From a virus: 44,722 nucleotides of DNA. The first letter of the stretch is position 1, and each line of letters begins with the position of its first letter. Both the position numbers and the translations under genes were made by a program. The notes below the pieces were generated by a model. That model made no database searches. It was not told the origin of the DNA and saw only the letters and a program-made list of their open reading frames with translations. Below are positions 3,351 through 35,430 of this stretch, one piece after another. Where the stretch lies: IMG/VR virus record IMGVR_UViG_3300033145_001596, positions 1 through 44,722 of that record; one strand, given 5' to 3'.

Positions 3351-3803
3351 ATGACTAAGCGCTACATTGGAACGAAGATTATCGAGGCCAGGCCGATGAC
3401 GCTTGGCGAGTACAACCTGTACCGTTCATGGAAAATCCCGGATGATGAGGACCCGTGCCGTAAAGGCTACTTGGTGATCTATCAGGATGGCTACGAGTCC
3501 TGGAGCCCGGCGACCGTGTTCGAGGAAGCTTACAGGTTGTGCGATGCAATGACGTTTGGCCTGGCAATCGAGGCCATGAAGAAGGGCAAGAAGGTCGCTC
3601 GTGCCGGGTGGAACGGTAAAGATATGTTCATCTTCCTGCGTGAAGGACGCCAGATTACAGGCGTTGCACCGGACAGCCCAATGGGCGGGGATTTCGAGAG
3701 CAGGGGTCATTTCTGCATGAAAGACGCCCAAGGGCTTTGCGTTGTCGGCTGGCTGGCCTCTCAGACCGACATGATCGCCGAAGACTGGTTCATGGTGGAA
3801 TGA
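3351..3803 (+). CDS. Tad2-like (DUF2829) anti-Thoeris protein
   Basis: A 150-residue protein whose C-terminal ~85 residues match the DUF2829/Tad2 pattern: MTFGLAIEAMKKGKKVARAG, then WNGKDMFIFL, and near the end GWLASQTDMIAEDW. Known Tad2 proteins form homotetramers that sequester signalling nucleotides made by Thoeris ThsB, and some relatives bind CBASS nucleotides. The N-terminal ~60 residues (MTKRYIGTKI, then GYESWSPATVFEEAYR) are an extra domain seen in many phage proteins of unknown function. The ribosome binding site is AAGGAGCAAGAGTT. It lies between terminase and portal, and its stop overlaps the next start (ATGA). The family call is fairly sure; anti-defence activity of this copy is inferred. 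Confidence 0.8.
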   Translation: MTKRYIGTKIIEARPMTLGEYNLYRSWKIPDDEDPCRKGYLVIYQDGYESWSPATVFEEAYRLCDAMTFGLAIEAMKKGKKVARAGWNGKDMFIFLREGRQITGVAPDSPMGGDFESRGHFCMKDAQGLCVVGWLASQTDMIAEDWFMVE

Positions 3804-4200: not shown

Positions 4201-5967
4201 ATGGGCTTTAATCCAAAAAACAAAGATGACATCATACGGCTTTCAACCGCCGTAAAGTACAGCTTCGGCAAGGCGCTTAAGCCTTTCCGCGATCATCGCC
4301 TGGAAGCGATTCGTGAATATGTCGGCAGGCACTACTCCGACAACGGCACCTCAGACCGCGTTCCGATCAACCTGCTGGAATTAGCGGTCAACATCTACCT
4401 GCAACGGCTGGCGTCAAAGGCGCCGAATGTAGATGTCAGCACCAAGTTCAAGCAACTCAAGGACAAGGCTGATCGGTTCGGAATAGCCCTCAACTACCTC
4501 ATCACCGAGGAAATCGAGTTTGCAGACGCCCTGGAAATGGTCGTGCTGGATGCGGTCTTCTCGGTCGGGATTATGAAGGTGGGGATCAATAACACCACTG
4601 TCGAGGTCGGCGGGATCCTGCACGATGTAGCACAGGCCTTCGCCGATCATATCTCGCTTGACGATTGGGTTCACGATATGACGGTCAAGCGGTTTGAGCA
4701 GGCTCAGTTCATGGGCAACCGCTACCAGATGCCGCTTTGGCAGGCAAAGGAGCTTTTCCCAGACAAGGCCGACAAGCTCATCTCCGTGGAACGTCGGAGA
4801 GGCCAGGAAACAGACCGCGATCTGTCAGAGGGTGAATCATCGACTATCGAACGGTTCAACGAGGTTGTTGACCTGTGGGACCTGTGGCTGCCGCAGGAAA
4901 ATGTGGTGCTTACCTGCCAGGTTGACGACGCTACCGGAGGGATAGCCGAAGTGCTCAACGTGGTCGAATGGACGGGTCCGGAAAAAGGCCCTTATCACTT
5001 CCTGAGCTTCAGTAAGGTCCCGAACAACACCATGCCGTTGGCCCCGGCTGCGTTGTGGATGGACCTGCACAAGTTGGCCAATGAACTCTTTCGCAAATTG
5101 GGCAGACAAGCGGGGCGGCAGAAGACGGTTATCGGTGTTCGCGGCGGCGCCGACGCAGACGGCAATCGCATCCTGAGCGCCAACGACGGCGACATGGTAC
5201 GGCTCGACGACCCGAAGGCTGCGCAGGAATACAAGTTCGGCGGCATCGACCAGGAGAGTCTCGGCTTCCTCATCATGGTCAAGGACCTGTTCGCCTACCT
5301 GGGCGGCAACCTCGACGCTTTGGGCGGTCTCGGCCCGCAGGCTGAGACATTAGGCCAGGACCAGCTCTTGACGGCCAGCGCCTCTCAGCGAATGCAGAAG
5401 ATGCAGAATCGCACGGTGGGGTTCACAAAGAGAGTCATAGGCGATCTCGGCTGGTATCAGTGGACCGACCCCACCACAGAATATGCTGTAACTAAGCGCG
5501 TGCCGGGTCTGGATGTGGCGGTCGAGGATGTCTTCGGGCCGATGGACCGCGAGCAGGCCAGCGAGTTCATGCGGTTCAACATCAAGATACAGCCCTACAG
5601 TATGCAGAACCAGACGCCTGAGATGAAACTCATGGCGATCAAGGAAATCTTTATGAACTTCCTTGCCCCGTTCGCCCCGCAGATGGCCGAGCAGGGGATA
5701 ACGATCAACTTCGAGGGATTGCTCAAGCTCATCAGCGATCTCGGCAACCTGCCGGAGCTTAACGAGCTTTTGGACTACGCAAACCCTCAGCAGCAACAGC
5801 AACCCACCCAACCGCCAAAACAGAGCCCGGTAACGACGCGGAAGTACGAACGCATTAATCGACCGGGGGCAACCAGGCAGGGCAAGGACCAGATCATGCA
5901 GCAGGCGCTGTTCGGAGGCAAGCCGCAGAACAGTGAAATGAGTTCGCTTATGCGACCTACAGGATAA
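4201..5967 (+). CDS. Portal protein
   Basis: A 588-residue protein placed between terminase and the scaffold/capsid genes, where the portal ring subunit belongs. The portal forms the dodecameric DNA gateway at one head vertex and docks the terminase. The N-terminus is helical and basic (FNPKNKDDIIRLSTAVKYSF), the middle is alpha/beta, and the C-terminal third contains long helices and a Gln/Pro-rich linker (QQQQQPTQPPKQ) before a short basic tail. The ATG at 4201 is chosen because the upstream TTG lies within the terminator hairpin. The ribosome binding site is weak. Size and order support the call; no single diagnostic motif is visible. Confidence 0.75.
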   Translation: MGFNPKNKDDIIRLSTAVKYSFGKALKPFRDHRLEAIREYVGRHYSDNGTSDRVPINLLELAVNIYLQRLASKAPNVDVSTKFKQLKDKADRFGIALNYLITEEIEFADALEMVVLDAVFSVGIMKVGINNTTVEVGGILHDVAQAFADHISLDDWVHDMTVKRFEQAQFMGNRYQMPLWQAKELFPDKADKLISVERRRGQETDRDLSEGESSTIERFNEVVDLWDLWLPQENVVLTCQVDDATGGIAEVLNVVEWTGPEKGPYHFLSFSKVPNNTMPLAPAALWMDLHKLANELFRKLGRQAGRQKTVIGVRGGADADGNRILSANDGDMVRLDDPKAAQEYKFGGIDQESLGFLIMVKDLFAYLGGNLDALGGLGPQAETLGQDQLLTASASQRMQKMQNRTVGFTKRVIGDLGWYQWTDPTTEYAVTKRVPGLDVAVEDVFGPMDREQASEFMRFNIKIQPYSMQNQTPEMKLMAIKEIFMNFLAPFAPQMAEQGITINFEGLLKLISDLGNLPELNELLDYANPQQQQQPTQPPKQSPVTTRKYERINRPGATRQGKDQIMQQALFGGKPQNSEMSSLMRPTG

Positions 5968-5979
5968 AGGAATGACATT

Positions 5980-6162
5980 ATGCCGCCAGGATCGGAAAAA
6001 CCGTGTGCAGCTCACGATGTAAGAATCACCAACATGGAAAAGCGCCAGGATAAGGTGGACGTGATTCTTGAGAAGATACGGAACCGCCTGCCGGTCTGGG
6101 CAACGTGTGTAGTTTCACTTCTGACGTTAATCATCGGACTTTTATGGAAGATGGGAAAATGA
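5980..6162 (+). CDS. Small membrane protein, XhlA/holin-like topology
   Basis: A 60-residue protein: a polar N-terminus, a short amphipathic coiled-coil (ITNMEKRQDKVDVILEKIRN), then one transmembrane segment (VWATCVVSLLTLIIGLLW) and a Lys tail. This layout resembles XhlA-type haemolysin/holin accessory proteins, which work with holins in lysis. Its place in the head operon is odd for a lysis gene. The ribosome binding site is AAAGGA; its stop overlaps the next start. The function is uncertain, the topology is clear. Confidence 0.6.
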   Translation: MPPGSEKPCAAHDVRITNMEKRQDKVDVILEKIRNRLPVWATCVVSLLTLIIGLLWKMGK

Positions 6163-6596
6163 CTAAAAGCAGCAAACCCAAAGTAATGACTTGCGTTTTT
6201 CGCAGGCTCGACAACAACGCGCCTGTTGTACTGTACATGACCCATGATGAGTGGCTGGACCAGATCGAGAGCATCCCCGAATCTCAGGACTGGTGCATCA
6301 AGCTCGATGACGGCGGCTACGCTCGCTTCTGTAGACAGGAAACGGACATCCGACGCTACGGCAAGTTCAACCATACGCCCGGCAACTGGCCTATGACCTC
6401 GACCGCTGCCGGCGTTGCCGCAAGTCAGGTTGCCGAGTTGACAGAGTATGACCGAGAGCATGGCGTCCCTACGGAATATACCCCGGACGGCGACCCTATT
6501 TTCACAGGCAAGGAGCACAGGAGAAAGCACTGTGCCCTTCACGGCATGTACGACCGTAACGCCGGCTACGGAGACCCCGCGCCGGTGAACAGATAA
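6159..6596 (+). CDS. Hypothetical protein before scaffold
   Basis: A 145-residue mixed-charge protein starting MTKSSKPKVMTCVFRRLD, coupled to the preceding gene by an ATGA overlap. It contains several aromatic and Cys/His residues (QDWCIKLDDGGYARF; KEHRRKHCALHGMYDR) but no recognised zinc motif. It lies between portal and scaffold, so a head or procapsid role is possible. No function is assigned. Confidence 0.6.
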   Translation: MTKSSKPKVMTCVFRRLDNNAPVVLYMTHDEWLDQIESIPESQDWCIKLDDGGYARFCRQETDIRRYGKFNHTPGNWPMTSTAAGVAASQVAELTEYDREHGVPTEYTPDGDPIFTGKEHRRKHCALHGMYDRNAGYGDPAPVNR

Positions 6597-33075: not shown

Positions 33076-33359
33076 TGAAGAAGAAGGCCGCAAAAAAAAA
33101 TCAGTTCAATGTACATGTACATGTGGATGAGGATATTGCCGCGCAATTCGAGAAATGGCAAAGAACTATAACAGGCACAAAGGGAGATAAATTGGGTGCT
33201 GCACTGTTAGCGGTGGAAGCCTTGTTTCGCTTCAACGAGACGATTGTTTACCGATTGATGGCCGCGGGCGTGACTGTTGAGAAAGCAATGTCGCTTATCC
33301 GAGAGGGGATGATGGAAGCCAGCACAGACAACCAGCAAAATACGGAGGTGGGGTCGTGA
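33075..33359 (+). CDS. Small RHH-like protein B
   Basis: A 94-residue protein with a basic start (MKKKAAKKNQFNVHVHV), then DEDIAAQFEKWQRTITGTKG and LGAALLAVEALFRFNETIVY. The pattern of a strand, an amphipathic helix with F-x-x-W and a second Ala/Leu-rich helix is shared with the neighbours. It is coupled at both ends (TGATG before, GTGA after). A DNA-binding role is inferred. Confidence 0.65.
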   Translation: MKKKAAKKNQFNVHVHVDEDIAAQFEKWQRTITGTKGDKLGAALLAVEALFRFNETIVYRLMAAGVTVEKAMSLIREGMMEASTDNQQNTEVGS

Positions 33360-33595
33360 CACAGGATGAAACAAAATATGTGGGCGGGCCGATTCCGAGC
33401 AAACTGAAGGACCAGATCGAACAGCAATGCGGCGATTTCGGCCTCAAGGTCGGTCGTGTGGTAGTCGCAATGTCGCGGCTGTGGGCTGACTTGCCACCGG
33501 ATTTGCAGATGAAGCTCTACCAGCGAATCAACAGCAGTGAGAACTTCTTAGACCTGTTGATGGGCAGTATTTCAGATGCGGAGGTGCAGGCATGA
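33356..33595 (+). CDS. Small RHH-like protein C
   Basis: A 79-residue protein starting at GTG with GGAGGTGGGG just upstream, overlapping the previous stop (GTGA). The motif GGPIPSKLKDQIEQQCGDFG then VAMSRLWADLPPDLQMKLYQ and SSENFLDLLM is closest to the leftward regulator's N-terminal region, making common descent likely. It lacks that protein's 100-residue C-terminal extension. It could compete with it for DNA or form mixed dimers. Confidence 0.7.
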   Translation: MTQDETKYVGGPIPSKLKDQIEQQCGDFGLKVGRVVVAMSRLWADLPPDLQMKLYQRINSSENFLDLLMGSISDAEVQA

Positions 33596-33816
33596 CGGAA
33601 GGCAGGATTAAGAAAACTTATCATTTACCTGAAAAGCTCACAGAATCTTTTGCGGAGTGGTGTAAACCGGGCAGGGATTACTCGCCGAAAGTCGCCGGAG
33701 CGATGTTGGTTTGGATGACTTTGGCTCCTGCGGTGCGAGAGCAGGTTGTCCGGTTGGCTTACTCCGACGGCATTGATGCCGCCAAGAAGAAAGTTGCTAC
33801 ATTGGAGGTTGTGTAA
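33592..33816 (+). CDS. Small RHH-like protein D
   Basis: A 74-residue protein: KKTYHLPEKLTESFAEWCKP, then YSPKVAGAMLVWMTLAPAVR and EQVVRLAYSDG. It keeps the strand-helix-helix plan and the W-x-x-L-x-P word seen in the relatives. It overlaps the previous gene by ATGA and ends one codon before the HTH gene. Function is inferred from its relatives only. Confidence 0.65.
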   Translation: MTEGRIKKTYHLPEKLTESFAEWCKPGRDYSPKVAGAMLVWMTLAPAVREQVVRLAYSDGIDAAKKKVATLEVV

Positions 33817-34077
33817 ATGTCAGCCAAAGAAATCGAACCGCTCTACTGGAACGTAACAGAGGCGTCGCTCAGCACCGGCTGGACGAAATCGCAACTATAT
33901 AGTCTGCCACTTGACGGTGTGATGATCGTCCGGCGGGGCCGTCGCCGCCTGTTCAACATTGAAAAACTGCTCGAATGGACGAGCCGAAAGGACGAGCATT
34001 CGCGGCAAGAGTTTTTGAAAACCATCCTCTTGGAAAACCGAAGACCCCGGCGTAAGCCGCGCGCCGCAACCGCATAA
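33817..34077 (+). CDS. Excisionase/MerR-like small HTH protein
   Basis: An 86-residue protein with LYWNVTEASLSTGWTKSQLY then LDGVMIVRRGRRRLFNIEKL, a winged-helix pattern like phage excisionases and helix_turn_helix_17 proteins, ending in a basic tail (RRPRRKPRAATA). Ribosome binding site GGAGG. It could be the excisionase for the integrase, or a partner of the Cas12-like protein encoded 37 bases downstream. The fold is fairly clear, the role is not. Confidence 0.72.
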   Translation: MSAKEIEPLYWNVTEASLSTGWTKSQLYSLPLDGVMIVRRGRRRLFNIEKLLEWTSRKDEHSRQEFLKTILLENRRPRRKPRAATA

Positions 34078-34114: not shown

Positions 34115-35170
34115 ATGACGCAGAAACAGACCACAGTTCGCAGGGCATACAAATTCAGGGCATATCCTGTAGGCCGCACAAGTCGCAAGGCCAAACGCGC
34201 CATGCGGACTTGCGGCGCGATTTGGAACGCTGCTGTTGGTGAACGCTGGGGCCGCTATCACGAATCGCAAAAAAATGATGATGTCAAGCCTGTGCGGGGC
34301 AGTTACGAGCAGTATCATCTGGTTCGCAAGCGTGAGCACCCCGAATACGCGCACATGGACGCCCAATCGATGCAGGATGTGCTGGTCAAGGTTGACGGCA
34401 GCTTCAAAAGTTATTGGGCATTAAAAAAGAAAGACCCCGATGCTAAGCCGCCAAAAATCAAAAAGGAACTATGGCATTACAAAGTTCTTGTGTTCCGTCA
34501 AAGTGGTTGGCGGCTGGAAGGCAATCGGCTGGTGCTCAGTCGGATTGGCGAATTCAAGCTAAAATTGCACAGGCCCTTTGCCGGTCGGATCAAGACCGTT
34601 ACCGTATCTCGCTCGTATAATAAGTGGTATGTGGTTTTTAGCTGCGACGAAGTTCCGACTTGCGCCTTGCCTGACACAGGCAAATCTGTGAAGATATTTT
34701 TTGCCGACGGCTGTTTTCTCTATGACAATAACGGCAGGCTTGTACATCATCCGCAGTTCTATTTCAGCCAAATATCCCGCCTCCGTGTCTTGAGTCGGGC
34801 TCTGAGTCGCAAGCAAAAGGGCTCGAAGAATCGCGACAAGGCCCGAACTATCTTTCGCCGATTCCATGCGGCGATCAAAGACAGGAGATCTCACTTTTTA
34901 TGGTCGTTGGCAAACGATTATGTTGCAAAATACGATGTGATCGATATCCCCTCCCTGCCCCTAAAGCGAATGATTCAGCACGCCGCGACCGGCATATACG
35001 CGATGCGTCTTTGCGATTCAGCATACGCTTTATTTGTCGACATGCTGCGGTGCAAGGCAGAAGAATACGGCAGAAAAATTACGGAATACGATTCCGACAA
35101 GCTCTTTGATATACAAAAAATTACCGGCCCGTGTAGGGCCATGTCGCATAAAGTCGTTGCGATTCAATGA
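34115..35170 (+). CDS. Nuclease-dead TnpB/Cas12-like protein
   Basis: A 351-residue TnpB/miniature Cas12 relative. The N-terminal half follows the OrfB pattern: RRAYKFRAYPVGRTSRKAKR, QSMQDVLVKVDGSFKSYWAL, then HRPFAGRIKTVTVSRSYNKW. The RuvC-like half keeps family spacing (NNGRLVHHPQFYF; RALSRKQKGSKNRDKAR; AEEYGRKITEYDS). But the RuvC-I Asp of the usual VGIDxG is Phe 195 in SVKIFFADG, the RuvC-II Glu of IVVEDL is Pro 279 in VIDIPSL, and the CxxC zinc ribbon and RuvC-III Asp are absent because the protein ends early. Cleavage should be impossible, while guide and DNA binding regions remain. It ends the regulator operon and directly precedes a CRISPR array; no TnpA or IS ends are seen. Likely an RNA-guided DNA-binding protein. 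Confidence 0.88.
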   Translation: MTQKQTTVRRAYKFRAYPVGRTSRKAKRAMRTCGAIWNAAVGERWGRYHESQKNDDVKPVRGSYEQYHLVRKREHPEYAHMDAQSMQDVLVKVDGSFKSYWALKKKDPDAKPPKIKKELWHYKVLVFRQSGWRLEGNRLVLSRIGEFKLKLHRPFAGRIKTVTVSRSYNKWYVVFSCDEVPTCALPDTGKSVKIFFADGCFLYDNNGRLVHHPQFYFSQISRLRVLSRALSRKQKGSKNRDKARTIFRRFHAAIKDRRSHFLWSLANDYVAKYDVIDIPSLPLKRMIQHAATGIYAMRLCDSAYALFVDMLRCKAEEYGRKITEYDSDKLFDIQKITGPCRAMSHKVVAIQ

Positions 35171-35195
35171 CTTGCGGCAAGAGCACCTCCCATCT

Positions 35196-35430
35196 GTTGG
35201 GAGCAACCCGTATTTGCGGTGTGTTTACAACTTTCGGGTATGTCGGGCAAGAATCGAATTGGTTGGGAGCAACCCGTATTTGCGGTGTGTTTACAACGCA
35301 TCAAACAAATAGTGTTCGACTTGTGTTGTTGGGAGCAACCCGTATTTGCGGTGTGTTTACAACCGGCTGATCCGAACGGCTCGGCGGCGATGATGTTGGG
35401 AGCAACCCGTATTTGCGGTGTGCTTACAAC
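35196..35430 (+). CRISPR. CRISPR array, four 36-nt repeats, three spacers
   Basis: Repeats at 35196-35231, 35262-35297, 35328-35363 and 35395-35430 begin GTTGGGAGCAACCCG and end TTTACAAC. The first three are identical; the last has C for T eight bases from its end, the usual mark of the leader-distal repeat, so the array reads rightward like the Cas12-like gene. Spacers are 30, 30 and 31 nt and unrelated to each other. The 36-nt repeat length is typical of type V. GTTG and CAAC words allow small hairpins. The array starts 25 nt after the Cas12-like stop, leaving no room for a long leader, so it may be cotranscribed. No Cas1/Cas2 genes are in the window. I saw no spacer match elsewhere here. 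Confidence 0.95.

Follow-up and report, generated by a model that had tools for sequence, protein, structure and literature searches.

The subject of this study is a gene for a TnpB-like protein in a viral genome, together with the CRISPR array that directly follows it and a structured RNA element that overlaps the end of the gene. All three lie in a 44.7-kb stretch of DNA (positions 1 to 44,722 of IMG/VR virus record IMGVR_UViG_3300033145_001596), which was analyzed at its full length and is referred to here as the window. The features of this module are as follows:

34115 to 35170, + strand: nuclease-dead TnpB-like effector, 351 amino acids (Pfam OrfB_IS605, 1.5e-10; NCBIfam guided_TnpB, 129 bits against a cutoff of 100 bits; TnpB fold)
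34697 to 34699, + strand: codon for F195, which replaces the RuvC-I Asp; the GxDxG motif is lost (alignment)
34949 to 34951, + strand: codon for P279, which replaces the RuvC-II Glu (alignment)
35126 to 35195, + strand: scaffold resembling trans-activating CRISPR RNA (tracrRNA) or omegaRNA (covariance model, 67.8 bits, E = 1.5e-13 for scaffold plus repeat 1, the window sequence having belonged to the training set; covariation; fold z = -4.4)
35126 to 35140, + strand: helix H1, hairpin GGCCC-GTGTA-GGGCC (91% of alignment cells paired; 3 of 5 pairs changed on both sides)
35142 to 35179, + strand: helix H2, TGTCGC ... GCGGCA, with a variable apical hairpin, holding the stop codon of the reading frame (92% paired; 3 of 6 pairs changed on both sides)
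35181 to 35186, + strand: 5' arm of helix H3, GAGCAC, pairing with repeat 1 at 35221 to 35226 (GTGTTT)
35187 to 35192, + strand: anti-repeat CTCCCA, helix H4, pairing with repeat 1 at 35198 to 35203 (TGGGAG) (swap test, p = 0.0004)
35196 to 35231, + strand: CRISPR repeat 1, 36 nt (repeat detection)
35232 to 35261, + strand: spacer 1, 30 nt (between repeats 1 and 2)
35262 to 35297, + strand: CRISPR repeat 2, 36 nt (repeat detection)
35298 to 35327, + strand: spacer 2, 30 nt (between repeats 2 and 3)
35328 to 35363, + strand: CRISPR repeat 3, 36 nt (repeat detection)
35364 to 35394, + strand: spacer 3, 31 nt (between repeats 3 and 4)
35395 to 35430, + strand: CRISPR repeat 4, distal end of the array, one substitution (repeat comparison)

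The effector gene is open throughout its reading frame, and its product has the fold of TnpB. Pairwise alignment with ISDra2 TnpB spans residues 10 to 324. An AlphaFold2 model (predicted local distance difference test score, 89; predicted template modeling [TM] score, 0.79; 38 rows in the input alignment) returned ISDra2 TnpB (8exa) as the top Foldseek match (TM, 0.78/0.80), followed by other TnpB proteins and then by Cas12f, natural dCas12f, LaTranC, Cas12m, and Cas12k. The predicted fold is intact across residues 1 to 335. Core TnpB residues (K13, R15, Y17, P18, N38, P113, G145, R153, G157, R258, and K314) are kept across the family of dead homologues described below. A PADLOC match that would place the protein in Cas12f was rejected as unspecific because ordinary phage TnpBs receive higher scores.

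The active site, in contrast, is lost: tests for membership in the TnpB superfamily found the fold and the core residues but not the RuvC Asp-Glu-Asp (DED) triad. In an alignment of 38 proteins, F195 stands in the RuvC-I Asp column, with the flanking glycines also gone, and P279 stands in the RuvC-II Glu column; the GxDxG and Glu motifs are absent from every member of the dead family. The residue facing the RuvC-I Asp varies with the alignment, since pairwise comparison with ISDra2 TnpB places K193 there instead of F195, and neither residue is acidic. The protein stops short of the zinc ribbon and of RuvC-III, which holds the third Asp. Its last ~15 residues are a low-confidence part of the model, and their codons lie in the RNA scaffold; a zinc-ribbon remnant that one alignment suggested there was rejected for that reason. 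A preliminary description of this DNA, made from the sequence alone, had claimed an intact 351-residue TnpB/Cas12-like gene with Phe 195 and Pro 279 at the catalytic positions, no zinc ribbon or RuvC-III Asp, and four 36-nt repeats directly behind it. These claims were borne out, and the finding that it had named as fatal to them, an alignment with intact catalytic residues elsewhere, did not arise.

Homologues at about 32 to 44% identity are encoded at seven other loci, mostly on phage contigs. Among 80 relatives from a profile search of viral contigs, taken together with further phage proteins, the only complete proteins without any catalytic residue were the window protein (P0001) and those of L010, L012, and L013. 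These three loci were also among the four that were flagged for arrays besides the window. The fourth, L037, carries four 39-nt repeats with a spacing of 71 to 73 nt (L037:2687-2942) immediately 5' of an intact tnpB. When the four dead proteins were used as queries, a second search led to L090, L128, L131, and L133, all of them dead and with arrays, and a search with the pattern GACCTCGATTTG returned only the known loci and one member at a contig edge, L160. In a tree of 116 proteins, the eight dead proteins form a single clade (Shimodaira-Hasegawa-like approximate likelihood ratio test, 100), within which the window protein is the first branch; the trait changes once on the tree, compared to 7.8 times expected by shuffling. 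All eight members of the dead clade have an array within or downstream of the gene, compared to none of about 110 intact homologues scanned. These counts allow for L128, whose gene is divided in two by its array, and for L140, where a TnpB of dead appearance has an array as well. This co-occurrence reflects shared descent and not independent events. Over stem and tip branches of 0.4 to 1.4 changes per site, the reading frames of the clade stay open. The dead TnpB with its array is a conserved family, not a lone pseudogene. The preliminary judgment that the gene is selected rather than decayed is upheld by the single clade, the open frames, the arrays in all eight members, and the covarying scaffold; homologues that were random pseudogenes without an array would have spoken against it, and the opposite was found.

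Several further observations were made. At L140 (IMGVR_UViG_3300037264_006580), a distant TnpB-like protein of 337 amino acids (4968 to 5981) is followed by about seven repeats of ~30 nt (6142 to 6521); its catalytic sites read E and N, the third residue is absent, and the scaffold covariance model gives no match. L140 is perhaps a second, independent event that joined a dead TnpB to an array. In L131 and L013, a zinc-ribbon-like CxxC...CxxC insertion occupies a new place in the RuvC helical region, and the usual C-terminal ribbon is absent. Small open reading frames (ORFs) of ~120 amino acids without a Pfam match lie between the effector gene and the downstream array in L012 (4116 to 4502) and L013 (3371 to 3733).

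The element directly 5' of repeat 1, which overlaps the last ~45 nt of the effector ORF, is by sequence and covariation a tracrRNA/omegaRNA-like scaffold with an anti-repeat (35126 to 35195). The H3 arm pairs with the 3' half of the repeat and encloses the anti-repeat, which pairs with the 5' half to form H4; a further helix, H5, is a hairpin within the repeat and is often present in the family. The scaffold-repeat RNA terminates in ...ACAAC, after which the spacer begins. With such an anti-repeat, the module would be a dual-RNA or fused-guide system. The preliminary description mentions neither this element nor the arrays within effector genes that are described below for relatives. In tnpB genes, omegaRNA likewise overlaps the gene end, a likeness of layout to the window scaffold and not a test of homology.

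The same scaffold structure precedes the first repeat at all 12 family arrays, in degenerate form in a few members. Across 11 leaders, 87% of alignment cells pair, compared to 38 to 53% when the arms are slid, and 26 cells carry changes on both sides of a pair. Scaffold covariation was 0.447, compared to 0.198 ± 0.031 for shuffled alignments, with 0 of 500 shuffles as high. The leaders were aligned by hand with the variable H2 loop cut out, which leans these pair counts toward the structure; slid controls, a repeat swap test, and a covariance-model scan guard against this bias. In the swap test, anti-repeats matched their own repeat better than the repeats of other members (p = 0.0004). The scan covered 493 kb from 56 loci, dozens of them with an intact tnpB, and gave matches in family loci alone; none of the intact tnpB loci searched had the scaffold. 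It recovered the downstream leader of L013, which was outside the training set, whereas the window and other leaders were in it. An Rfam search of the scaffold found no family at the gathering score.

By their identical direct repeats and unique, evenly sized spacers, the 12 arrays of the family qualify as CRISPR arrays; the repeats are of ~36 nt and the spacers, ~40 in all, mostly of 29 to 31 nt. Each array holds 2 to 10 repeats and each virus 1 to 9 different spacers, and the spacers differ completely between viruses. The terminal repeat is mutated or shortened in the window, L012, L090, L128, L131, and the in-gene array of L133. Exact and degenerate searches of viral contigs found no copy of the window's own repeat. 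In L013 (2715 to 2900), L131 (5640 to 5860), and L133 (3205 to 3520), the effector gene contains, between its WED-coding and RuvC-coding portions, a second scaffold and array that are in frame and leave the coding frame free of stops. These arrays keep an in-frame period of 66 nt, which is only suggestive, being the usual period elsewhere too. In L128 (3608 to 5099), the array splits the effector gene into two ORFs (WED/REC and RuvC-like), the latter equipped with a plausible ribosome-binding site of its own. A third array in L133 follows a second copy of the gene that is truncated and evidently broken. The in-frame arrays suggest that the effector mRNA and the guide precursor could be one molecule.

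The window encodes a large terminase, tail proteins, RecT, RusA, a PD-(D/E)XK nuclease, a DNA methylase, and a tyrosine integrase, and because of these genes the virus is most likely a temperate phage; the module is phage-borne, as had been claimed from the sequence. A RecT-based search for kin of this phage led to unrelated phages only. The module adjoins a GpA terminase in L013 and L090, and the array at the contig edge of L160 adjoins one as well. In the window phage, the terminase is of a different kind and the module occupies another region, so the module has probably moved between phages. L090 is a contig of a Planctomycetota metagenome-assembled genome with integrases, a GpA terminase, and a lambda-type portal, that is, a prophage-like region; of 392 Planctomycetota genomes, it was the only one with the dead protein (E ≤ 1e-25) or the repeat core. 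Elsewhere in the window, positions 3351 to 3803 encode a protein resembling Tad2, a Thoeris anti-defense protein (Pfam PF11195, E = 8.9e-25). The effector gene is preceded by a chain of small ORFs:

33356 to 33595, + strand: small ORF of the chain (homologue beside the relative in L010; BLASTP E = 4e-8)
33592 to 33816, + strand: small ORF of the chain (weak similarity to the same small L010 protein; BLASTP E = 4e-4)
33817 to 34077, + strand: small ORF directly 5' of the effector gene (helix-turn-helix-like by eye; no Pfam match)

A Pfam search of these small overlapping ORFs found no family. The preliminary description had placed the effector at the end of a regulator operon; the chain of overlapping ORFs is there, but none of them matches a Pfam family, and their identity as regulators is at most putative.

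Taking these data together, we think it reasonably probable that the locus is a type V-like CRISPR module, built on a nuclease-dead derivative of TnpB, with which a temperate phage silences DNA by RNA-guided binding. The analysis establishes the dead active site, the retained TnpB fold, the conserved clade, the arrays, and the covarying scaffold; how the RNA is processed, that the protein binds and silences DNA, and what it targets are inferred. A single plus-strand transcript would comprise the effector mRNA, the scaffold overlapping its 3' end, and the array. The anti-repeat and junction arms of the scaffold would pair with the repeat, in cis on repeat 1 and in trans on later repeats, leaving a guide that consists of ACAAC and then the spacer. 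Holding this guide RNA, the effector would bind matching DNA without cutting it, and the bound protein would block transcription or replication at the target site. Interference by binding alone has been demonstrated for inactivated Cas12m (PMC11013384; PMC12669027). The likeliest use would be against competing mobile elements, which the module would silence either as part of a prophage or while the phage infects a cell.

Several points weigh against this interpretation. Family spacers had no match better than chance in their own or related viruses, and no spacer was self-targeting. No protospacer was found in INPHARED phages, none for the window spacers in plasmids, and none in a scan of viral contigs with one window spacer; apart from the locus itself, the only hits of the spacers in the 392 Planctomycetota genomes were two partial ones, 21 to 24 nt long. 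With no protospacer for any spacer, the class of target is a guess, and the repression or interference proposed in the preliminary description is likewise conjectural. No cas1 or cas2 was recognized among the ORFs scanned, which leaves the origin of the spacers unexplained. The register of H4 and H5 shifts between members, so that these helices could be tested only one at a time or by swap, and anti-repeat assignments are weak for some members (L013, and the in-gene array of L131).

The same dead effector could instead serve host regulation, as in TldRs, which are nuclease-dead TnpBs, some of them on temperate phages, that repress host fliC (PMC13418256). The prophage array would then be a set of guides repressing chosen host promoters and altering the lysogen, for which the integrase of the window phage and the position of the effector gene at the end of a chain of small ORFs can be cited. 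We consider this unlikely, though the strongest of the alternatives: there are several spacers per array, entirely different between viruses, the 392 Planctomycetota genomes held only the array itself and short partial matches, and no fliC-like cargo gene was recognized beside the effector. Because the multi-spacer arrays differ completely between viruses, we favor the silencing of competitors, which they would fit better than host regulation. A Cas9 encoded by a phage, with a dead RuvC and a tracrRNA of phage origin, has been proposed to sequester host CRISPR RNAs (crRNAs) (PMC11656645), and by analogy the dead protein and scaffold could be a decoy anti-CRISPR that sequesters crRNAs of a host type V system. 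This is improbable given that an array of its own, with varied spacers, is present at every locus, that each scaffold fits its own repeat, and that the repeat core occurs in 1 of 392 Planctomycetota genomes, namely, at the prophage locus itself. A functionless, decaying tnpB that landed beside an array by chance would be in keeping with how common tnpB genes are, with known spurious tnpB-array neighbors (PMC6452270), and with the broken second copy in L133. However, eight diverged proteins in one clade, with open frames, arrays arranged alike, and a covarying scaffold, leave it hardly credible, and the pseudogene reading was rejected on these grounds. Least credible of all is RNA-guided targeting of transposition or integration, since no Tn7-like transposition gene was recognized among the window ORFs scanned, although Cas12k is likewise an inactivated TnpB-derived effector with an array and tracrRNA and gives a weak fold match.

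A binding-only CRISPR module of this kind resembles several known systems. TldR shares the nuclease-dead TnpB, a scaffold RNA by the gene, and an occurrence in temperate phages, and one TldR clade uses a dual guide split by RNase III (PMC13418256); TldRs, however, have single guides and no array, whereas this family has 2 to 10 repeats and a different, clade-specific scaffold. Cas12m (subtype V-M), which occurs on plasmids and some prophages, combines an inactive RuvC effector and an array with interference by binding (PMC11013384), but it is ~600 amino acids long, has a REC "roof," and lacks a tracrRNA; the shortest members here have 320 to 377 amino acids and a tracrRNA-like element, and the effector sequence is closest to TnpB rather than to Cas12m. 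Phage Cas9 with a dead RuvC (II-C2; PMC12669027, PMC11656645) is a phage-borne dead effector with a tracrRNA, but it is a Cas9 with an HNH domain that is thought to sequester host crRNAs. Cas12f (type V-F) is a small TnpB-like effector with tracrRNA and array (fold TM, about 0.6), and tracrRNA-repeat pairing as in type V-F appears in this family on sequence and covariation; Cas12f has an active DED RuvC, which the family lacks. Cas12k (V-K) differs in having Tn7-like transposition genes nearby. Exapted dCas12f systems act together with a sigma factor, and none was recognized at the window locus. LaTranC, a TnpB-Cas12 intermediate, uses an omegaRNA-derived RNA together with array RNA and is an active nuclease, unlike the phage-borne, dead effector family here. 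The effector matches LaTranC (PDB 9jfo) weakly in profile and fold, and the window locus has both a gene-end scaffold and an array, the two RNA sources that TranC uses and that the window module may use. Natural dCas12f-guide RNA complexes (PDB 9n9c and 9n9m, by title) match in fold (TM, about 0.6) but are only 10 to 12% identical in sequence. Among type V effectors, the known inactivated forms that work through binding are V-C, V-M, predicted V-O, and V-P, and some 50 associations between TnpB and CRISPR have been inferred (PMC12669027); this clade may already be catalogued among the latter. From each of TldR, V-M, V-F, and V-K, the window module departs in one or more of the defining features tested.

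More tentatively, and with somewhat less than even confidence, we suggest that the family may be a separate nuclease-free type V lineage, born in temperate phages directly from TnpB, whose tracr-like RNA would derive from the omegaRNA at the 3' end of the gene. In some members, array and scaffold would have moved into the effector frame, so that a single RNA would serve as mRNA, scaffold, and precursor of the guides, and the processing of guides would restrict how much effector is made. In the literature compared, we did not meet this combination of features together: a phage-borne effector of about 350 amino acids, the loss of all catalytic residues, a gene-end tracrRNA-like scaffold, and a multi-spacer array. 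The module represents a testable intermediate between TnpB with omegaRNA and Cas12 with tracrRNA and crRNA. It suggests that phages can favor binding over cutting and keep a binding-only DNA-silencing system, the effector of which would be a very small programmable DNA binder.
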